Source: Kiritimatiellia bacterium (GTDB lineage: Bacteria; Verrucomicrobiota; Kiritimatiellia; CAIQIC01; Lenti-01). From it: DNA of 43,301 nucleotides. The notes beneath the pieces are model-generated. The model ran no database searches. It was not told where the DNA came from and was given only the letters and a program-made list of their open reading frames with translations. The stretch is taken from NCBI GenBank assembly GCA_017527155.1, contig JAFXQI010000040.1, forward strand, positions 1-43,301, read 5' to 3'. How positions within the stretch are numbered: the stretch's first letter is position 1; each line of letters opens with the position of its first letter. The translations under genes were made by a program, and so were the position numbers. Shown here piece by piece: positions 15,278 to 35,185 of this stretch.

Positions 15278-15432
15278 TTTTCCAATGGTTGGAAAAAAAG
15301 TTTCCAATGGTTGGAAAAACCGGGCCGTTTTTTCCAATGATTGGAAAAAATTTTCGCCGGTTTTCCAATGATTGGAAAAAATTTTGAGGATTTTTCCAAT
15401 GATTGGAAAATTTTTTTCCAATGGTTGGAAAA
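15278..15432. repeat. Array of six TTTTCCAATSATTGGAAAA palindromes
   Basis: Six near-identical palindromes of 18-23 bp lie at 15278-15296, 15301-15318, 15328-15350, 15361-15379, 15392-15410 and 15414-15432. The centre base alternates G or A (ATGGTT or ATGATT). Spacers are only 3-12 bp and differ in sequence. The array ends 63 bp before the ATG of the XRE-cupin regulator. It is either an operator cluster for a dimeric DNA-binding protein or a local expansion of an intergenic palindrome of this lineage. The AT-rich palindromes stand out against the GC-rich genome. Confidence 0.9.
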
Positions 15433-15495
15433 CTTTTGGGCTTGCGGTCGGGGAAATGGCGGCGTATACGGCGCGGTGATTGGAGAAAAAACCAC

Positions 15496-19561: not shown

Positions 19562-19727
19562 TAGAGTATTCTGTGGCTCCCCAGACGTTTCCCAACCACA
19601 AGGTCGCGCGGAAGCGCGACCCTCCCGGTGCGTTCTCCACGGGGAGGGACGCGCTTCTGCGCGTCCGCGGTGGGAAATGGCCGGTGAGATAACGGCTCGA
19701 AGCCACACTGTTTTTGAAACCGCTCTA
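19562..19727 (+). repeat. R1 dispersed repeat, full copy
   Basis: This is the longest R1 copy. It begins near GAGTATTCTGTGGCTCCCC, continues through the hairpins GTCGCGC-GGAA-GCGCGAC and GGACGCGC-TTCT-GCGCGTCC, and ends in AACGGCTCGAAGCCACACTG followed by a T-rich tail. The three full copies (here, 31244-31369 and 35030-35185) are near-identical over about 110 bp. It touches the stop of the converging TPR lipoprotein gene. Confidence 0.85.
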
Positions 19728-26825: not shown

Positions 26826-26840
26826 AATCGCCGGGACGGC

Positions 26841-26880
26841 GATGGTTGGATGGTTTGATGGTTGGATGGTTGGATGGTTT
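26841..26880. repeat. Left 8-bp minisatellite (five GATGGTTK units)
   Basis: Five contiguous units GATGGTTG or GATGGTTT start 16 bp after the folE stop. They are the reverse complement of the ACCATCNN units at 26944-27095, so the two blocks can pair. Confidence 0.9.
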
Positions 26881-26943
26881 CCCCGTTCCAGCCAAACACC
26901 CGAATCACAAGACGATCCTACAACTCAACTTTCAACCCCCCGC

Positions 26944-27095
26944 ACCATCCCACCATCGCACCATCCCACCATCAAACCATCAAACCATCGCACCATCGCA
27001 CCATCGCACCATCAAACCATCAAACCATCGCACCATCGCACCATCGCACCATCAAACCATCAAACCATCGCACCATCAAACCATCAAACCATCGC
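26944..27095. repeat. Right 8-bp minisatellite (19 ACCATCNN units)
   Basis: Nineteen exact 8-bp units ACCATC+NN run up to 7 bp before the lpd start codon. The last two bases follow an order CC, GC, CC, AA, AA, GC, GC, GC, AA, AA, GC, GC, GC, AA, AA, GC, AA, AA, GC, which gives a 40-bp higher-order repeat. No ribosome binding site is left before the lpd ATG. Confidence 0.93.
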
Positions 27096-27102
27096 ACCAC
27101 CC

Positions 27103-28560
27103 ATGAACACCCTGACCATCCTCGGCGGCGGTCCCGCCGGCTATCCCGCGGCCTTCCTCGCGGCCGACCTCGGCATGGACGTCACGCTCGTCGATCCCGC
27201 GCCCGCGCTGGGCGGTACCTGCCTCCACCGCGGTTGCATCCCGTCCAAGACCCTCCTGCACGCCGCGCGCGAACTGGCCGCCGCCGGCGCTCCCGAACCG
27301 GGGGGGTATGACTTGGCGACTTGCGACTTGCGCGGAGGACCACCCTGCGCCGCCCTGCTGGAGCGCTTCCGCGTCCGCAAGGCCGAGGCCGTGTCCGCGC
27401 TCGCCGCCGGGCTTGACCGCCTCGCCGCCGCCCGCAAGATCCGCCGCATCCGCGCCCGCGCCGCGTTCGCCGCGCCGGGGCGGCTCGTCCTGGACGGGCC
27501 CGGCGGCGAACTCCCCTGCGACCGCCTTCTCGTCGCCACCGGATCGGAGCCGGTCGTTCCCTCCGCCTTTCCCGCCGGCCATCCCGACCTCTGGACCTCG
27601 ACCGAAGCCCTCGAGCTGCCGTGCATCCCGGACCGCCTCCTCGTGGTCGGCGGCGGCGCCATCGGCCTCGAACTCGGCACCCTCTACGCCGCGCTCGGCT
27701 CCCGCGTCACCCTCGTCGAAGCCCTCCCCGCGCTGCTCCCCGGCACCGACCGCGACCTCCTGGTACCGCTGCTCAAACGCCTGCGCGCCGCCTTCGAAGC
27801 CCTGTACACCGGAACCGTCGCCACCGACATCGAGCCCCTGTCCGGCGGCGGCTTCCGCGTCACCCTCGCCCCCGCCCCCGGTCGCCCCGCCGCCGACGGC
27901 TTCCCCCGCACCGAAACCTATTCGACCATCCTCGTCGCCGCCGGACGCCGCCCCGCCCTCGACGCCCTCCATCCCGGACGCGCCGGACTCTCCCTCGACG
28001 GCCGCGGCTTCCTCCTTCCCTCCCCCGACGGCACCGTACGCCCCGCCGGCGATTGCGCCTCCGCGCCCCTCCTCGCCCACAAGGCCACACACGAAGCCCG
28101 GCTCGCCGCCGCCCGCTTCGCCGCCGACGCCGGATGCCCCGGCGCCGCCGAAGCCCTCGCCGACCTCTCCGCCGCCTCCGGCACCGTCCCCTCCGTCGTC
28201 TATACCGACCCCGAACTCGCCGTCTGCGGCCTTTCCGAGACCGCCGCCAAGGCGGCCGGGATCCCCTGTGCCGCCGCCAAATGCCACTGGGCGGGCGTCG
28301 GCCGCGCGCAGGCCATCGGGCGGACCGACGGCCTGACCAAATGGATCTACGACCCCGGCACCCACCGCATCCTCGGTGCCGCCATCGTGGGCGCGGGCGC
28401 CGGCGACCTGCTGGGCGAAGCGCTCCTGGCCATCGAATGCAAGGCGACCCTCCGCGACGTCGCCCGCGCCATCCACCCCCACCCTACCCTCTCCGAGACC
28501 TGGGCCGAAGCCGCCGAAGCCCCCTTCTTCCCCGTACACGCGCTTCCGCGCCGCCGTTGA
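27103..28560 (+). CDS. lpd: Dihydrolipoyl dehydrogenase
   Basis: This 485-residue flavoprotein reoxidises dihydrolipoamide in 2-oxoacid dehydrogenase or glycine cleavage complexes using NAD. The FAD motif is LGGGPAGYPAAFLAADLG, the redox-active disulphide is GGTCLHRGCIPSK, the NAD motif is VVGGGAIGLELGTLYAALGS, and the interface ends with the catalytic His-Glu in AIHPHPTLSETWAEA. No E1/E2 or glycine-cleavage genes are adjacent. The ATG follows the minisatellite directly. Codons 66-78 (GYDLATCDLRGG) are encoded by a local GACTTGC-type triplication with AT-richer codons, probably a small insertion in a surface loop. Confidence 0.93.
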   Translation: MNTLTILGGGPAGYPAAFLAADLGMDVTLVDPAPALGGTCLHRGCIPSKTLLHAARELAAAGAPEPGGYDLATCDLRGGPPCAALLERFRVRKAEAVSALAAGLDRLAAARKIRRIRARAAFAAPGRLVLDGPGGELPCDRLLVATGSEPVVPSAFPAGHPDLWTSTEALELPCIPDRLLVVGGGAIGLELGTLYAALGSRVTLVEALPALLPGTDRDLLVPLLKRLRAAFEALYTGTVATDIEPLSGGGFRVTLAPAPGRPAADGFPRTETYSTILVAAGRRPALDALHPGRAGLSLDGRGFLLPSPDGTVRPAGDCASAPLLAHKATHEARLAAARFAADAGCPGAAEALADLSAASGTVPSVVYTDPELAVCGLSETAAKAAGIPCAAAKCHWAGVGRAQAIGRTDGLTKWIYDPGTHRILGAAIVGAGAGDLLGEALLAIECKATLRDVARAIHPHPTLSETWAEAAEAPFFPVHALPRRR

Positions 28561-28866: not shown

Positions 28867-31095
28867 TCAGGCGAAATTCTTGCGGAAGGTGAAGATGTTG
28901 CAGCCGTGGGCGCGCTTGTAGGCGACGGAGTCCATGGTCTTGCGCACGAGCAGGAGGCCGAGTCCGCCGATGGGGCGCTTGTCGGCGGGGAGCGTCGTGT
29001 CCGGCGGCGGGACGGCGAGGGGGTCGAACGGCGTGCCGTCGTCGGAGACCGACACGGCGGCGCCGCGCGGGTCGCGCCCGAACCTCACTTCGATGGCCAG
29101 CCCCGACGCGCCGGAGCAGCGGACGACGTTGGACACGATTTCGTCCAGCGCCACCATCAGCTGCGCCTTGGGCCGCGCCGGGCAGTCCGCCCCGTCGAGG
29201 ACTTCTTCTAGGAACGCGGCCGCCGCCGCCATGGCGCCGGCGTCGCAAGGGAAGGTCTTCAGCCGCCGCTCGGGCGCGCCGAGGTAGCGGACGGAGAGGA
29301 TGGTCAGGTCGTCGGCGCGCGGGGCGCCATTGACGAAGGACACGACGGCCTTGCGCACGGCGGCGCCGAGGTCGCGCGGTTCGCGGGAGGGGACCTTGGC
29401 GAGCGTCGCGGCGAGGCGGGAGTCGCCGAACAGCTCGCCCGCGGGATTCATCGCCTCGGTCACGCCGTCGGTGTAGAGGAAGAGGGCGTCGCCGGGGGCG
29501 AGGACGACCTCGCGCGGGCGGTAGTTCGCGGCGCCGAAGCAGCCGAGGGGGATGCCGGAGAGCCCGCGCAGCCATTCGGGGACCACGCCGTCGCGCAGGA
29601 CGAGCGGCGGGTTGTGGCCGGCGTTGGCGAAGGCGACCCGTCCGGTTTCGAGGTCGAGGACGCCCACCCACGCGGTGATGAACATCTGCGCGGGGTTGTT
29701 GGCGCAGAGCTCGGCGTTGACGCGCGCGAGGGCCGCGGCGGGGTCGCGGGAGGGGTCGGCGAGGAGCGTGTCCTTGACGAGGGTCTTGGCGTTCATCATG
29801 TAGAGGGCGCCCGTGACGCCCTTGCCGGAGACGTCCGCGACGAGGAACGCGCGGTGCGTCTCGCCCAGCGGGAAGAAGTCGTAGAAATCGCCGCCGACCT
29901 CGCGCGCGGCCACCATGCAGGCGTCGAGGCGCCAGCATTCCTCGTCGGGGAACTCCATGGGCAGCGAGGCCTGCTGGATGGTGCGGCCGAGCTCCAGGTC
30001 CTGCTCGACGCGCCGGATGCGTTCCGCCGCGGCGGTGCGGAGGGCGTCGACCGTGGCGTTGATGTTGTCTGACAGCTCGGAGAATTCGCGGCAGGAGCGC
30101 ACGTCCGCGCGGCCCGCCAGGTCGCCGCCCGCGATGCGCCGCAGCGCGCCGCCGATCTGCCGCACGGAGCCCGCGACGCGCCTGCGGAGCATCCGCGAGA
30201 CGAAGGCGAACAGCGCCGCGAACACGACGAGCTGCACGGCGGCCATCCGCGGCATGAAGCGGTTGCGGGAGGCGAAGACGTCGTCCTCCGGGTTGGCGAG
30301 GACCGCCAGGTAGTCGCGCACCGGCCCGGCGTAGCAGAACACCGGCTCGCCGCCGATCGTCGCCTGGAAAACCGTGCCGGTCGGGACCGCGGCGGGGTTC
30401 AGGCCGGTCGCCGCTTCCAGGGTCTTGCCGGCGAGCGACATGTCGGCGTGGCTCGTGATGACGCCGGCGCCGTCCACGAAGATGATGTATCCGCGCTCGT
30501 CGATGTGCCAGCTGCGCGTGTAGCCGTAGGCGCGCTGCCGCAGGTAGCGGAGGAAACGCTCCTCGGACCAGCCGACCTCGATGTAGCCGCTGCGGTCGGG
30601 GAAGCGCACGGCGGCGTACTTGAAGACCTTGCCGTCGGACGTGCGCGGGCGGTCCGGCTGCGCCATGGATTCGGGCCCGTCCGGCTTGAGCAGCACCAGG
30701 AACTCGGACCACTGCTCGCCGTGCACCTTCTCCCCGACGAGGCGGCTGCCGCCGACGACGATCCCGCGCGTGTCGATGTCGTAGATTTCCGCGATTTCCT
30801 CCTCGGCGCAGAGCGCGGCCACGTCCTCCGAGGCGAGCTTGCCGGAGGAGCCGAGGCGGTTCGCGATGTCGCGGGCGATGGAGACGAGCTGGTAGTCGGC
30901 ACGGTCCGTGAAGCCGCGCGAAACGTCGCGGTAGTTGATTTGCAGCAGGCGCTCGACGTCGCGGCGCGAGCGGATCGTCTCGCCCTTCCAGAGGACGAAG
31001 ATCGCGACGACGAACGACACGGCGACGAGGACCAGCAGGCGCAGCCGCAGCTGGAACGTGAGGGTCTGGCGTTCGTTCATCTTCGCGATGTTCAT
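28867..31095 (-). CDS. Membrane PP2C (RsbU-type) phosphatase with C-terminal RsbW-like ATPase
   Basis: This is a 742-residue protein. It has TM1 at about 18-37, an extracytoplasmic sensor of about 245 residues with Cache-like features (DIDTRGIVVGG, DERGYIIFVDGAGVITSHAD), TM2 at about 283-301, a HAMP-like segment (RIAGGDLAGRADV), a PP2C/SpoIIE domain with metal ligands in GGDFYDFF (Asp403, Asp406), DVSGKG, YTDGVTE and ADDLTIL, and a GHKL ATPase at 615-740 (DEIVSNVV with Asn656, SDDGTPFDP, GGLGLLLV). In partner-switching systems a phosphatase of this kind dephosphorylates an anti-sigma antagonist and an RsbW-like kinase phosphorylates it. Here both activities share one chain. No STAS-domain antagonist gene lies nearby. 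An alternative start is Met6. Confidence 0.93.
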   Translation of the reverse strand: MNIAKMNERQTLTFQLRLRLLVLVAVSFVVAIFVLWKGETIRSRRDVERLLQINYRDVSRGFTDRADYQLVSIARDIANRLGSSGKLASEDVAALCAEEEIAEIYDIDTRGIVVGGSRLVGEKVHGEQWSEFLVLLKPDGPESMAQPDRPRTSDGKVFKYAAVRFPDRSGYIEVGWSEERFLRYLRQRAYGYTRSWHIDERGYIIFVDGAGVITSHADMSLAGKTLEAATGLNPAAVPTGTVFQATIGGEPVFCYAGPVRDYLAVLANPEDDVFASRNRFMPRMAAVQLVVFAALFAFVSRMLRRRVAGSVRQIGGALRRIAGGDLAGRADVRSCREFSELSDNINATVDALRTAAAERIRRVEQDLELGRTIQQASLPMEFPDEECWRLDACMVAAREVGGDFYDFFPLGETHRAFLVADVSGKGVTGALYMMNAKTLVKDTLLADPSRDPAAALARVNAELCANNPAQMFITAWVGVLDLETGRVAFANAGHNPPLVLRDGVVPEWLRGLSGIPLGCFGAANYRPREVVLAPGDALFLYTDGVTEAMNPAGELFGDSRLAATLAKVPSREPRDLGAAVRKAVVSFVNGAPRADDLTILSVRYLGAPERRLKTFPCDAGAMAAAAAFLEEVLDGADCPARPKAQLMVALDEIVSNVVRCSGASGLAIEVRFGRDPRGAAVSVSDDGTPFDPLAVPPPDTTLPADKRPIGGLGLLLVRKTMDSVAYKRAHGCNIFTFRKNFA

Positions 31096-31219: not shown

Positions 31220-31369
31220 ACGCCTGCCGTTCCCCGGTCTCATGGTCGCGGGGAAGCGCGCCCCTCCCGATGCGTTCTCCACGGGGAGGGACGCGCTTCT
31301 GCGCGTCCGCAGTGGAAAATGGCTGGTGAACCAACGGCTTGAAGCCACACGATTTTTGAACCCGCCCTA
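31220..31369 (+). repeat. R1 dispersed repeat, full copy
   Basis: GGTCGCGGGGAAGCGCG through GGACGCGCTTCTGCGCGTCC, then AACGGCTTGAAGCCACACG and a T-rich tail, match the 19562 copy closely. It ends at the stop codon of the converging Cys-rich gene, just as the 19562 copy ends at the TPR gene stop. Confidence 0.85.
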
Positions 31370-31678
31370 GTGTTCGTGGTGCCCGCCGGGGGCGTAGCTG
31401 CACGACCCGAAGGAGGAGGAGCCGCAGAAGCGGCACTTGCCGTGGCCGTAGCCGTGTTCGTGCTTTCCGTGCGGGGAGAGGGAGCAGGAGCCGTAGGAGG
31501 ACGAGCCGCAGAACATGCACTTGTCCCCGCCGGCATCCGTGTGCTTGTGGCACTTGGCGTACGGACACGATCCGTAGCCGGACGAACCGCAATAGGAGCA
31601 GGTGGCGCTTGCGGCGGAGGGAAGGGCGAAGGCCAGCGCGGCGGCCAGCAGGAGAGCGTGGGGAATGGATGGTTTCAT
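31367..31678 (-). CDS. Secreted Cys/His-rich protein with three CGSS repeats
   Basis: This is a 103-residue protein. A signal peptide (LLLAAALAFALPSAASA) is followed by three copies of C-x2-CGSS-x2-GSC: CSYCGSSGYGSC, CMFCGSSSYGSC and CRFCGSSSFGSC. They are spaced by His- and Lys-rich linkers (KCHKHTDAGGDK, SPHGKHEHGYGHGK), and the chain ends GGHHEH. Each repeat has three Cys and could bind zinc, copper or another metal, or form disulphides outside the cell. The repeats are near-identical, so they look recently duplicated. No family is recognised. The start lacks a Shine-Dalgarno and sits 10 nt from a -10 box. Confidence 0.85.
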   Translation of the reverse strand: MKPSIPHALLLAAALAFALPSAASATCSYCGSSGYGSCPYAKCHKHTDAGGDKCMFCGSSSYGSCSLSPHGKHEHGYGHGKCRFCGSSSFGSCSYAPGGHHEH

Positions 31679-31748: not shown

Positions 31749-32531
31749 TCACTCGTCCGGCACGGGGGTGAGGCAGACGCGGAAGCCGACGTTGTTGTAG
31801 CGGCAGGCGGGGGGGAGGGAGAGGCGGTCCTCGCGGAGGCGCCGGGTGAACCACTCGTCACCGCACCAGTTGCCGCCGCACACCACGCGCTCGGTGCCGG
31901 TGGCGGGGCCGGCGTAGTTCGCCGCGGGGGCCTTCGGCCACGGGGCGAACCAGTCCTCGCACCACTCGCTGACGTTGCCGTCCATGTCGAAGAGGCCCCA
32001 TTCCAGCGCATCCGGCCGCCCCGCGGGGTGGGTATGGCCTCCGCTGTTCTCGGCCGTCCAGGTCCGCGGGGAACGCCACCGGGCGGCTTGCTGCGCCAGG
32101 AGCCATTCCATTTCCGTCGGGAGGCGCAATCCCGTCCGGCGGCAGAACTCCATGGCGTCGTCCCAGGAGACGCATTCGACCGGCAGCTCCGCCCGACGGG
32201 AGGCCGCGGACAGCTCCTCGCCGCGGAAATGGGACGGATTGGTCTCCATCACGCCCGTCCACTGCTTCTGGGTCACCTCGCAGACGCCGATCCAAAAGCC
32301 CTCCACCGGCACCCTGCGGGAGGATTTCTTCTCCCCGGTGGGAACCTCGCCCGCCTCCATCCAGGTCAGCACCAGCTCCGCGCCGCCGGGCAGCACGACC
32401 GTCCGTTTTTCGAATGGTCCCTTTCCCGGCGGCAGGGTGCAGGGGCCCTCCGGCGGTGCGGCAAGGGCCGGCGACGCCACGAAGAACGCCGCCAGGGACG
32501 CGAACAGCCATCTGCACGCGCGTTTCACCAT
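31749..32531 (-). CDS. Secreted SUMF1/FGE-sulfatase-domain protein
   Basis: This is a 260-residue protein with a signal peptide (LFASLAAFFVASPALAAPP) and a formylglycine-generating-enzyme-like fold: FWIGVCEVTQKQWTGVM, LPVECVSWDDAMEFCRRTGL, RLPTEMEWLLAQQ, GLFDMDGNVSEWCEDWF and NNVGFRVCLTP. True FGEs oxidise sulfatase Cys or Ser, but many bacterial relatives tied to kinases have unknown or ligand-binding roles. Its start (ATGGTGA) overlaps the stop of the kinase gene, whose C-terminal domain is of the same family. It is therefore probably a partner of that signalling system rather than a sulfatase activator. Confidence 0.9.
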   Translation of the reverse strand: MVKRACRWLFASLAAFFVASPALAAPPEGPCTLPPGKGPFEKRTVVLPGGAELVLTWMEAGEVPTGEKKSSRRVPVEGFWIGVCEVTQKQWTGVMETNPSHFRGEELSAASRRAELPVECVSWDDAMEFCRRTGLRLPTEMEWLLAQQAARWRSPRTWTAENSGGHTHPAGRPDALEWGLFDMDGNVSEWCEDWFAPWPKAPAANYAGPATGTERVVCGGNWCGDEWFTRRLREDRLSLPPACRYNNVGFRVCLTPVPDE

Positions 32532-34402
32532 CTTCCCTCTTCCTTGGCCTCGTTTTCCCAGTGCGCGATGGCGTTCTTCAGCGCTTGTTTGGCGGGATTT
32601 TCGGGAGGGTTGCGCGGCTCCGCCCACAGGCGGAAGCCGATTTCGCCGGGGGCGGGACAGACCGCGTACGGGTAGTCGCTGGGGAGGGTGCCGGGTCCGG
32701 GGACGGCATGGTCGTAACGCTCCATGTGCCGCCGGACGAACCGGGGTTGCTCCAACACCGACTGCGGAACGCCCTCCCCCGCGGCGGAATCCGCCCAACT
32801 CCCGCCCATGCACAGGAATCCTTCCTTTCCGTCCTCCTCGCCCCAGGTGAAGGTCAGTTCGCGGACGTTCCCGAACAGGTCGGCGCAGGGGCCGTCCGCC
32901 GCCTTTTCGCCGACCGGATGCGTCCGCCCGCCGGCATTCTCCGCGAACCACCCCGCCGCCAAGCGGCCATCGGGGGCCGCGTCTTCCGCCAGCTCCTCCC
33001 ACTCCCGTGCCATCGGCAAGCGGAACTTCAGGTCTTCTTCCTTGGCGATGGAGGTCGCGTTGAGGCGTTCCAGGAACTCCAGGCACGCCCCCGGGGTCAG
33101 GGAATCCACGGGCAGATCATCGCCCTTGAAGCGCGAAGGGTTGCCGTCCATCAGGGCCGACCACTGCCTTTGGGTGACCTCGTGGCGTCCGCACCGGTAT
33201 GGAATCCAGTCTTTCATGCCCGGGGCGTTCTTTTGCATGTCGTCCACCAGCGAGAGGATGGCATCCTTTCTCCACTCCTCGGACTCGAAGCGCGACAAGG
33301 CGGCCACCCGCTCCGTAGTGGCGCCTGCCACGCGGACGCCCGGGGCAGGCGGCGCCGCGGGTTCGGGCGTGGCGATGGCTTCAGGGGGGGCGGGGGCTTC
33401 GGGGGCTGCCGGAAGCGCCGGAGTCTCCGGAGGGGCCGGTGTTTCCGGAGGGGGCGGGGGCTCGGGCGCGACCGTTGCGGGCGGCGCCTCCTCCCGCCAC
33501 GCGCTCCACAACCACGCGCCCGGCGCCGCGACCAGCACGAGCGCCAGCAGCGCCCACGTCCAATTCCGTCCCCGGTGCCGACGACGGATGGCCCGGAGCA
33601 TCGGTGCCACGTCCGGGTAGCGCTGGCGGGGCAGCGCGGCGGTCGCCCGCCGGATGATCTTCTCCCACGCGCGCGGCGGGTGGCCTTCAAAACACTCCTC
33701 CGCCAGCATACCCAGGGCATAGACGTCCGCCGCGGGCGTCGCGCCGCCGCCCGCGAACTGCTCCGGCGCCGAATGGCCCGGCGTGCCGACGCCCGCCTCG
33801 CGGCCGCCCACCACCGACGGCGACTGCCGTTCCGACGCCGCGTCCGACGGCGCGTCGCCCGTGCCGACGGCCTTCAGCAGGCCAAAATCCGCCAGGACGG
33901 CATGTCCGTCCTCGCGCCGCAGGATGTTCCCGGGCTTGATGTCGCGGTGGAGCCAGCCGCGGGCATGCAGGGTCGCCACGCCCTCCCCGACGTCGAGCAG
34001 GTAGCGCGCCACCCCGCGGTCATCCGAGGGCGGAGGGAACTCGTCGAGCAGCTCCATCGCCACCCACGGGCGTCCGTCCTCCATCCCCGCGCCGTAGAAC
34101 GCGGGGAACGACGGCCCGGGGTTGCCCATCATGAAGCGCGACTCCTTGTCGAACCGCGCCCGCGGCCCCTCCCCGTCGCGCCAGAGGACCTTCAGCGCGG
34201 CCCGCGTGCCGAGCCGCCGGTGCTTCGCGCAATAGACCTCGGAGCCGCCCCCGCGCGCGAGGAAGCCCGTGACCGTCCACTCGCCGACCTCCCGCCCGTC
34301 CTCCCACAGGCGCGGCGGCGCCTCTCCGCCCAGGTCTTCCTCGCCGGATTCGGCGAGGTACGCCGCCAGCAGCTCGTCGCTGTCATCGAATCCCGTCGAC
34401 AT
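32525..34402 (-). CDS. Membrane Ser/Thr protein kinase with extracytoplasmic SUMF1 domain
   Basis: This is a 625-residue protein. Residues 40-265 are a Hanks-type kinase with a glycine loop LARGGGSEVY, Lys71 (ALKVL), catalytic HRDIKPGN (Asp154), ADFG (Asp172) and HSAPEQF. TM lies at 281-299, followed by a Pro/Ala/Glu linker (305-355) and a SUMF1-type domain (395-605: CGRHEVTQRQWSALM, FRLPMAREWEELAED, DLFGNVREL, EIGFRLWAEP). The N-terminal 38 residues are acidic. The SUMF domain should lie outside the membrane and may sense a ligand. The gene overlaps the sigma-factor gene by 20 nt and the secreted SUMF gene by 7 nt. An ECF sigma factor fused by operon to such a kinase suggests the kinase controls sigma activity by phosphorylation. 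Confidence 0.93.
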   Translation of the reverse strand: MSTGFDDSDELLAAYLAESGEEDLGGEAPPRLWEDGREVGEWTVTGFLARGGGSEVYCAKHRRLGTRAALKVLWRDGEGPRARFDKESRFMMGNPGPSFPAFYGAGMEDGRPWVAMELLDEFPPPSDDRGVARYLLDVGEGVATLHARGWLHRDIKPGNILRREDGHAVLADFGLLKAVGTGDAPSDAASERQSPSVVGGREAGVGTPGHSAPEQFAGGGATPAADVYALGMLAEECFEGHPPRAWEKIIRRATAALPRQRYPDVAPMLRAIRRRHRGRNWTWALLALVLVAAPGAWLWSAWREEAPPATVAPEPPPPPETPAPPETPALPAAPEAPAPPEAIATPEPAAPPAPGVRVAGATTERVAALSRFESEEWRKDAILSLVDDMQKNAPGMKDWIPYRCGRHEVTQRQWSALMDGNPSRFKGDDLPVDSLTPGACLEFLERLNATSIAKEEDLKFRLPMAREWEELAEDAAPDGRLAAGWFAENAGGRTHPVGEKAADGPCADLFGNVRELTFTWGEEDGKEGFLCMGGSWADSAAGEGVPQSVLEQPRFVRRHMERYDHAVPGPGTLPSDYPYAVCPAPGEIGFRLWAEPRNPPENPAKQALKNAIAHWENEAKEEGRW

Positions 34403-34973
34403 CCTTCAGCCTCTCCACGAGCTCCCGCAGGCGGTCCGTCATCCGCTTCTTCGTGACGTCCACCACGCCGCGGGAGACCCCCAGGGACTCCGCGACGGCC
34501 TGCGGCTTCTCGCCGCGCAGCGCCGTCCGCAGGAAGATCTGCTTGCCCCGCGCCCCCAGCCGCGGATTGTCCATCAGCTGGCCCAGCGCCACGGCATAGA
34601 CCGTCCGGCGCCACGCCTCCGCCGCGCCCCCCGCGACGCCGTCCGGCGCATCCCGCGTCGCGAGCGCCTCCGCCTCGCCCCGGCGCCCGGCCTTGCGCAG
34701 CGCGTCGACGGCCTTGTGGCGCAGGACGCCCGTCAGGAAATTGTGGAACGCCCCCTTCCGGTCCTCGCGCTCGACGTACCCCGGCAGCGCCTTCATCACC
34801 CCCAGCAGCGTCTCCTGGATCAGGTCGTCGGCCTCCACCCCGGGAAAGCGCTCCCGCGCGTGCGCCTCCAGCATCGGCCGGTACTTCGCGACGAACTCCG
34901 CCCAGCGCGGATGCTCCGCCGCGCCGGCGATCTGCTTGAGCAGTGTCGTGGATGTCGTCGGAACCTTGGCCAT
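34383..34973 (-). CDS. ECF-type RNA polymerase sigma factor
   Basis: This is a 196-residue protein. Sigma-2 region at 20-95: FVAKYRPMLEAHARERFPGV, EADDLIQETLLGVMKALPGY, FHNFLTGVLRHKAVDALRK. Sigma-4 at 130-190: IFLRTALRGEKPQAVAESLG and VSRGVVDVTKKRMTDRLREL, a helix-turn-helix. No anti-sigma gene is adjacent; instead the Ser/Thr kinase gene overlaps its end by 20 nt. In several PVC-group ECF families, control by a neighbouring kinase replaces the classical anti-sigma factor. The helix-turn-helix is intact. Confidence 0.92.
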   Translation of the reverse strand: MAKVPTTSTTLLKQIAGAAEHPRWAEFVAKYRPMLEAHARERFPGVEADDLIQETLLGVMKALPGYVEREDRKGAFHNFLTGVLRHKAVDALRKAGRRGEAEALATRDAPDGVAGGAAEAWRRTVYAVALGQLMDNPRLGARGKQIFLRTALRGEKPQAVAESLGVSRGVVDVTKKRMTDRLRELVERLKDVDGIR

Positions 34974-35029: not shown

Positions 35030-35185
35030 GGAGCGCGACCCTCCCGATGCGCTCTCCACGGGGAGGGACGCGCTTCTGCGCGTCCGCTGTGGGAATTGGC
35101 TGGCAAGACAACGGCTTGCGGCCACACTGTTTCCGCAACCGCTCTTGAGGGCGGACAACTTCCGGAAAGCCACGGCAAACGCAAA
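35030..35185 (+). repeat. R1 dispersed repeat, full copy
   Basis: AGCGCGACCCTCCCGATGCG through GGACGCGCTTCTGCGCGTCC, GACAACGGCTTGCGGCCACA and the trailing ACTTCCGGAAAGCCACGG. The last block also occurs in the 2898 copy, which helps define the right end of R1. The remainder of 34974-35415 holds only an ATG45 copy. Confidence 0.8.

Follow-up and report, generated by a model that had tools for sequence, protein, structure and literature searches.

We found by sequence comparison that an ECF-type sigma factor and a transmembrane Hanks-type Ser/Thr kinase, encoded by the first two genes of a three-gene locus, form the conserved unit, rather than the whole trio. The unit occurs in gut members of the class Kiritimatiellae, and the kinase probably controls the sigma factor. 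Our proposal, which we regard as reasonably probable, is that phosphorylation by the membrane kinase, whose lectin-like sensor is exchangeable, controls the sigma factor translated together with it. The core of this mechanism would be the two proteins made from overlapping genes, with the kinase domain in the cytoplasm, one helix passing through the membrane and the exchangeable sensor outside. Ligand binding outside the cell would alter the pairing or activity of the kinase, which would then phosphorylate its own sigma factor, and the sigma factor would direct its regulon. We infer both this phosphorylation and its sign and site; it would act away from region sigma2.2, most likely on an N-terminal TSTT cluster. 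In the analysed stretch of 43,301 nt (the window), the sensor would be a non-catalytic, C-type-lectin-like SUMF domain, and the third gene would contribute a secreted SUMF protein. All three genes lie on the minus strand: the sigma gene (196 aa; 34383..34973) overlaps by 20 nt (34383..34402; similar spacing in 56 loci) with the start of the kinase gene (625 aa; 32525..34402), whose end overlaps by 7 nt with the gene of the secreted SUMF protein (260 aa; 31749..32531). For the latter, the listed open reading frame begins at 33086 and the ATG at 32531 was taken as the sensible start. The overlap of all three genes claimed in the original prediction is therefore real.

To place the locus in its class, we compared it with the best 60 of at least 115 places (a hand count) in families of the class other than the window's own; scoring covered the three top candidates in each genome, so that the counts are lower bounds. 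In 56 of these 60 loci, the sigma gene lies directly upstream of the kinase gene on the same strand, and because of this recurrence the gene order is not attributable to chance. In the other four of the best 60, the sigma gene is on the opposite strand (one locus) or no sigma gene was found in the examined stretch (three loci); two of these three (L203 and L213) start at a contig end, and in the third (L239) roughly 4 kb of upstream sequence gave no sigma match and the contig ends downstream. Kinase starts were picked near the sigma stop, which biases them towards overlap, but the distance between the sigma stop and a conserved residue of the kinase is free of that choice (median 86.5 nt, range 58-181, n=56). 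When the first downstream frame of the class loci was clustered, we found neither a recurrent downstream partner of the kinase nor a SUMF gene following it; one candidate (L229) was rejected as the kinase's own SUMF domain continuing in another frame. A secreted SUMF gene follows the kinase gene in the window's genus only, where two of two genomes (G000 and G001) have it, so that of the trio, whose conservation had been left to be checked, the sigma-kinase pair held and the third gene did not. The one further genome of this genus, G001, has the kinase and SUMF genes (SUMF protein 95%) with no sigma gene upstream; homology stops at window position 34416, and a related sigma gene (80%) stands alone on contig C248 with no kinase following. 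This could mean that the two proteins act in trans there, that their linkage is not needed or that the contig was joined wrongly. The expectation that the ECF sigma factor is kinase-linked and that the pair includes no classical anti-sigma gene was borne out, the pair being class-wide, and Pfam detected no such gene among the seven window proteins scanned. A SpoIIE phosphatase-like protein with an RsbW-like ATPase domain is encoded 0.65 kb downstream (28867-31095) and was considered as a partner of the unit; it was not seen on the G001 contig.

The sigma factor matches Sigma70_r2 of Pfam (E=3.9e-12) and is assigned to the ECF type by TIGR02937 (sigma70-ECF; 58.6 bits against a curated cut-off of 42.9, aa 24-184). 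Region 4 is matched weakly by Pfam (HTH_23, 0.011), and the score against TIGR02989, the Rhodopirellula/Verrucomicrobium family, is 35.9 bits, below its cut-off of 124.55. The region 2.2 motif EADDLIQE (aa 47-54; 34812..34835, minus strand) keeps its acidic residues: Asp or Glu occupies positions 47, 49, 50 and 54 in 89, 95, 97 and 94% of 65 sigma factors, among which Ser/Thr hardly ever replaces these acids. The TSTT cluster (aa 7-10; 34944..34955, minus strand), just before region 2.1, is conserved at 89-98% in the same set (T7 in 64, S8 in 61, T9 in 59 and T10 in 58), which makes it a candidate phosphosite and the likeliest kinase target in the sigma factor. Alternatively, the cluster may cap the first helix. 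In the window's own genome, we observed by eye an N-terminal Ser/Thr cluster in 5 out of 5 kinase-linked sigma factors versus 0 out of 4 unlinked ECF factors (two primary-type sigma rows were excluded). The linked and unlinked sigma factors of this genome also differ by descent. A common promoter, suggested in the original prediction as a route to the regulon, did not emerge: a simple two-box count upstream of sigma genes (63 stretches, 55 once near-duplicates were removed) gave nothing above shuffles.

The kinase matches Pkinase (7.2e-19), and six catalytic positions (Lys of beta3, HRD...N, DFG and APE) are intact in 61 out of 61 aligned kinases, the window's included. The kinase domain (33668..34264, minus strand) is predicted to lie on the cytoplasmic side of a single hydrophobic segment at about aa 281-299 (33506..33562, minus strand), which has a positive RRRHRGR stretch on the kinase side and is predicted to be transmembrane from its sequence and the hydropathy of homologues; membrane segments were called by a hydropathy script, an untrained predictor. 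The ectodomain (32615..33244, minus strand) sits between the linker and a C-terminal tail (32528..32617, minus strand) that is common to SUMF-less kinases of two related genera, the tail's score against genomes G016 and G015 being reached by 1 and 0 of 2000 shuffles, respectively. Pfam alone places the SUMF domain below its cut-off (E=0.0026, 17.9 against 23.3 bits), but the ectodomain matches the downstream SUMF protein by BLAST (E ~5e-15) and a SUMF profile at 55.6 bits. Its structural model, of modest confidence (mean pLDDT 57), has as best PDB match 2y3c (E=5.8e-6), the SUMF/C-type-lectin protein TvpA of Treponema denticola, with Mtd as a weaker fold match. Taken together, the sequence matches and the model indicate a genuine though divergent SUMF domain, in agreement with the external SUMF domain originally ascribed to this kinase. 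Across the class loci, ectodomains vary while the kinase domain and membrane segment stay, which suggests that in Kiritimatiellae evolution repeatedly changes the part of the kinase outside the cell. Among the best 60 of at least 115 loci, we distinguished stacked-strand (25), clear SUMF (7, of which 4 are tandem pairs) and LRR ectodomains, and 12 kinases with almost none. Of the 58 kinases that have a membrane segment, 12 expose fewer than 60 aa outside, so the unit can do without a large external sensor. The modelled core of a stacked-strand ectodomain reaches pLDDT >90 but resembles no PDB entry significantly (best E=0.23), and 'beta-solenoid-like' is for that reason our own reading of its strands.

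The sigma-kinase pairing is of a known kind, and the feature that appears to differ is the switch, which from its sequence would be unlike that of EcfP/ECF43. EcfP-PknT of Vibrio parahaemolyticus and EcfK-PknS of Xanthomonas citri, both of group ECF43, resemble the window's pair in having an ECF factor adjoining a transmembrane Hanks kinase and no anti-sigma gene in the pair, and varied outside domains are reported for ECF43-linked kinases (PMC8999054, PMC13147305). However, ECF43 factors lack most or all of the sigma2.2 acids and are phosphorylated in that region (for EcfK, also in the linker), whereas the window's family keeps the acids and has its conserved Ser/Thr cluster at the N-terminus; the adjacent kinase of ECF43 is thus present and the uncharged, Thr-containing region 2.2 is not. 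An ECF43-like switch, in which phosphorylation of region 2.2 provides the missing negative charge as in EcfP/PknT, would fit the gene pairing but is contradicted by EADDLIQE and by acids kept at 89-97%, and we regard it as very improbable. Because these acids, which bind RNA polymerase, are in place, the polymerase contact is probably not something that phosphorylation creates here, unlike in EcfP. In the literature consulted, direct activating phosphorylation by the neighbouring kinase is demonstrated for the ECF43 type only, and according to one review other kinase-linked groups may differ. Such groups include ECF59, ECF61, ECF62 and ECF217 of Planctomycetes, which the window's sigma factor resembles in its gene pairing. 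According to PMC8999054, their kinase control is predicted from gene neighbourhood and non-ECF43 groups retain the acidic motif or something close to it; PMC8103513 differs, with ECF59 and the old ECF60 phosphorylated on serine in that motif. The statement that Hanks-kinase control of ECF factors is known in PVC bacteria thus stands as a prediction for Planctomycetes groups (PMC8999054), whereas experimental proof comes from Proteobacteria, with EcfP, EcfK and a Hyphomonas example. Our literature search, whose scope did not extend to Iyer et al. (2020), Casas-Pastor et al. (2021) and Jogler et al. (2012), gave no recognised description of an ECF-kinase-SUMF unit or of this sigma-kinase family. 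A different possibility is that the kinase is an inhibitor that holds a competent sigma factor at the membrane until signal-induced (auto)phosphorylation frees it. The pair without an anti-sigma gene, its tight co-translation and the intact acids, with which the sigma factor should be active if free, would suit such a role, but Pfam shows no anti-sigma-like segment in the kinase and catalytic positions intact throughout would be needless for a pure anchor, which leaves this possibility decidedly unlikely. Control by phosphorylation away from sigma2.2, the reading we prefer, would find a clean test in this family, given its intact acids, one near-invariant Ser/Thr cluster and dozens of kinase partners with differing ectodomains.

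The third gene encodes a secreted SUMF protein, as was originally predicted (FGE-sulfatase, E=1.4e-33, 117 bits; signal peptide by eye), and its closest solved sequence relative is again 2y3c. TvpA and Mtd are C-type-lectin proteins of diversity-generating retroelements. Unlike these, neither window SUMF is a variable region of the retroelement in their own genome: in a target, nearly all differences from the template repeat should fall on template adenines, as they do in the element's own target (21 out of 23 mismatches), and the window SUMFs show too many non-A mismatches (28/105 in the secreted protein, 31/100 in the kinase). Lectin-like proteins hypervaried by retroelements were found on contig C42 of the same genome and at two loci in genome G257. 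The window SUMFs share the domain family PF03781 with FGE/SUMF1, and the family name and the 117-bit match might suggest formylglycine-generating enzymes that activate sulfatases. We rejected this reading, named in the original prediction as the one opposed to its own, and give it scarcely any credence, as the catalytic cysteine pair (GG.[FWY].C....C) is missing from 28 out of 28 proteins, both window SUMFs included (two of the 28, own_L008 and own_L014, have no SUMF-profile match and are perhaps wrong frames), and the nearest relative of solved structure is a variable protein from Treponema. The window's family also suggests that SUMF domains are able to act as receptors without enzyme activity. 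The original model joins the secreted SUMF protein to the SUMF ectodomain of the kinase and has the kinase triggered by the resulting pair or by the pair's ligand. Consistent with such contact are the 7-nt overlap, the presence of both genes in the two genomes of the genus and a fused counterpart, four sigma-linked kinases with tandem SUMF domains in G174 and G175, two genomes of another genus. However, these tandem pairs are of a different SUMF subtype and hence a parallel case rather than an instance of this pair; in the tree, the two window domains do not group clearly as sisters (89/81, long branches), ectodomains of other kinds or almost none prevail among the relatives, the genome holds 15 SUMF matches in total, and another related kinase from the window's genus (C139) carries a single ordinary SUMF domain without a SUMF gene overlapping its own. 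Paired sensing therefore keeps the support of the tandem kinases but loses that of a conserved trio, and we consider it unlikely for the window. Slightly less doubtful is that the secreted protein is an output or accessory, such as a surface binding protein, outside the sensor: its gene is restricted to one genus, the pair exists without it elsewhere and the genome has many more SUMF genes, but with its start lying within the end of the kinase gene it would be made in step with the kinase.

Combining these observations, we tentatively suggest, while thinking it improbable as a whole, that a second sigma phospho-switch operates across gut Kiritimatiellae, with TSTT as the target in an otherwise competent sigma factor, that stacked-strand, LRR, TPR/Sel1-type and SUMF ectodomains have been swapped, and that SUMF was recruited from a retroelement-hypervaried lectin-like pool. 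If so, ready-made receptors may be recruited to rewire transcription. The R1 repeat upstream of the trio (35061..35085, plus strand), once taken as its boundary, has a further copy downstream (31284..31308, plus strand), and its 25-nt core occurs 340 times in the genome at up to 3 mismatches (168 + 172; reversed-pattern control 0); with so many copies it marks nothing particular. Finally, a small secreted Cys-rich protein of 103 aa without a family match is encoded 70 nt after the SUMF gene (31367..31678, minus strand) and is a possible fourth gene of the operon; it is found near the kinase in G001 and at another place in G016.

Three genes on the minus strand overlap, as the original prediction described. 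The first (34973-34383) codes for an ECF-type sigma factor; 20 nt of it are shared with the gene of a transmembrane Hanks kinase (34402-32525), whose end in turn shares 7 nt with the gene of a secreted SUMF protein (32531-31749). The draft genome, of which the window is a single contig, totals 3.23 Mb, and its relatives are Kiritimatiellae genomes from rumen and gut. We compared the kinase with 345 genomes of the class, scoring three candidates per genome, and found a match at E<=1e-45 in at least 73. Of the matching places, 115 lie outside the window's family; among the best 60 of these, 56 have a related sigma gene immediately before the kinase on the same strand, one (L248) has it on the opposite strand, like contig C79 of the window's own genome, and three have none in the sequenced stretch examined. 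Spacing within the pair is tight: between the stop of the sigma gene and a conserved kinase residue there is a median of 86.5 nt (range 58-181, n=56). Six catalytic positions are kept in all 61 kinases (the 60 loci and the window). Clustering the frames after the kinase at the class loci revealed no recurrent protein family, and the groups of similar frames look like repeat-derived ORFs. Only two genomes, the window's and G001 (the sole other one of the genus), have a secreted SUMF gene after the kinase, and the two proteins are 95% identical. The observation of the original prediction is confirmed and its interpretation partly supported; the trio is not a conserved unit. Judged from sequence, the conserved unit is the sigma-kinase pair. 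As a kinase-linked ECF, the single window locus is ordinary; the family behind it is consistent, with a different candidate switch and exchanged sensors.

The kinase-SUMF pair of G001 lacks an upstream sigma gene. DNA homology between window and G001 (93%) ends at 34416, within the final 34 nt of the sigma gene; at 80% identity, a sigma lies on G001 contig C248 with no kinase beside it. The genes may truly have separated, or the contig may be misassembled. At 31367-31678 (minus strand) a small secreted protein is encoded in which CxxCGSSxxGSC-like units are repeated and His-rich stretches occur; it has no Pfam or NCBIfam match. This protein also occurs beside the G001 kinase-SUMF pair and, far from the pair, in G016 (another genus of the family).

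In EcfP, of the known ECF43 group, the negative charge missing from region 2.2 is supplied by phosphorylation, according to PMC8999054 and PMC13147305. In contrast, an alignment of 65 sequences, eight taken from the family and 57 from class loci, retains D/E at positions 47, 49, 50 and 54 of the window sigma in 89, 95, 97 and 94%, and therefore contradicts an ECF43-type switch. The same alignment contains a conserved N-terminal cluster: T7 (64/65), S8 (61/65), T9 (59/65) and T10 (58/65). By eye, such a Ser/Thr cluster is present in all five kinase-linked sigmas of the own genome (C93, C79, C72, C86 and C80, the last with a weak kinase match), whereas the four unlinked ECFs (C56, C62, C41, C54) all lack it, after two primary-type sigma rows were dropped. 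We propose that the kinase would phosphorylate the sigma factor at these residues, switching it either on or off. The motif could also be explained by helix capping or by shared ancestry. The main rival is that the kinase is a direct membrane inhibitor of the sigma factor. For a Ser/Thr phospho-switch, a possible candidate phosphatase is a HAMP, SpoIIE phosphatase and RsbW-like ATPase protein encoded 0.65 kb downstream of the trio (28867-31095, minus strand), which was not seen on the G001 contig.

A membrane segment C-terminal to the kinase domain is found in 58 of 60 loci. The outside part is shorter than 60 aa in 12 of these 58 kinases, and 25 of the 46 longer ones form one family, modelled as stacked strands. 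SUMF is clear in seven class kinases (L192, L194, L202, L208, L229, L237, L247), the first four being tandem doubles from two genomes of one genus, and weak in L238. L248 and C79 carry LRR_5, and a further set of related loci carries TPR (L132) or Sel1 (L129, L134). The kinases of L189, L190, L191 and L195 have an outside tail of only 37 aa with the common end EHxEIxEMLxxDVY. Pairs closely related to that of the window occur in two other genera of the family, in G016 (sigma 81%; kinase 81% over aa 1-306) and in G015 (63-66%); SUMF is missing both from these kinases and right after them. Their short kinase tail is common with the window kinase C-terminus (score reached by 1 and 0 of 2000 shuffles, respectively), so a shared linker and a shared tail flank the window SUMF.

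This SUMF part is too divergent to reach the Pfam cut-off and is akin to the downstream secreted SUMF in sequence. A structural model of it, with modest confidence (mean pLDDT 57), has its best match in 2y3c, a SUMF/C-type-lectin protein (E=5.8e-6), followed by PvdO (1.3e-3). In the SUMF tree it joins the C44 kinase of the own genome (support 100/99), and SUMF domains in the other family's kinases form a further lineage. The C44 and G001 C139 kinases, at matching loci of sister species with the same 909-aa neighbour (L073:7181-8350 and L077:10325-12016), have different SUMF subtypes, which amounts to an ectodomain swap. Given the separate lineages and the SUMF-less close relatives, kinases probably acquired SUMF more than once.

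Sulfatase activation, which the original prediction had set against a sensing role, is disfavoured: the formylglycine-generating enzyme cysteine pair is absent from all 28 proteins examined, both window proteins among them. Among solved structures, the secreted SUMF is closest to 2y3c, a Treponema variable protein. Beside another SUMF gene of the own genome, a reverse transcriptase match (C42:30439-30951) belongs to a likely diversity-generating retroelement (L250:2865-7552) with a 142-nt template 299 nt from the gene's variable 3' end; of 23 sites differing between that end and a nearby copy, 21 fall at a template A. By analogy with this diversified SUMF, ligand binding is the likely role of SUMF in the window unit. 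Template comparison rules out the window SUMFs as targets of the C42 element. Genome G257 has two similar retroelements; six SUMF-bearing class kinases, compared with their two templates, do not fit as targets either.

R1 copies lie at 19642, 31284 and 35061 of the window. The 25-nt core has about 340 copies in the 3.23 Mb genome (<=3 mismatches; reversed-pattern control, 0), equally on both strands, or one per about 9.5 kb. Palindromic TTTTCCAATGRTTGGAAAA units form a tandem cluster at 15278-15454, and similar units recur in G001, on C248 and a short way upstream of the C172 kinase locus. An array of 8-nt units (ACCATCGC/ACCATCAA), with inverted copies too, occupies 26839-27107 before a gene starting at 27103.
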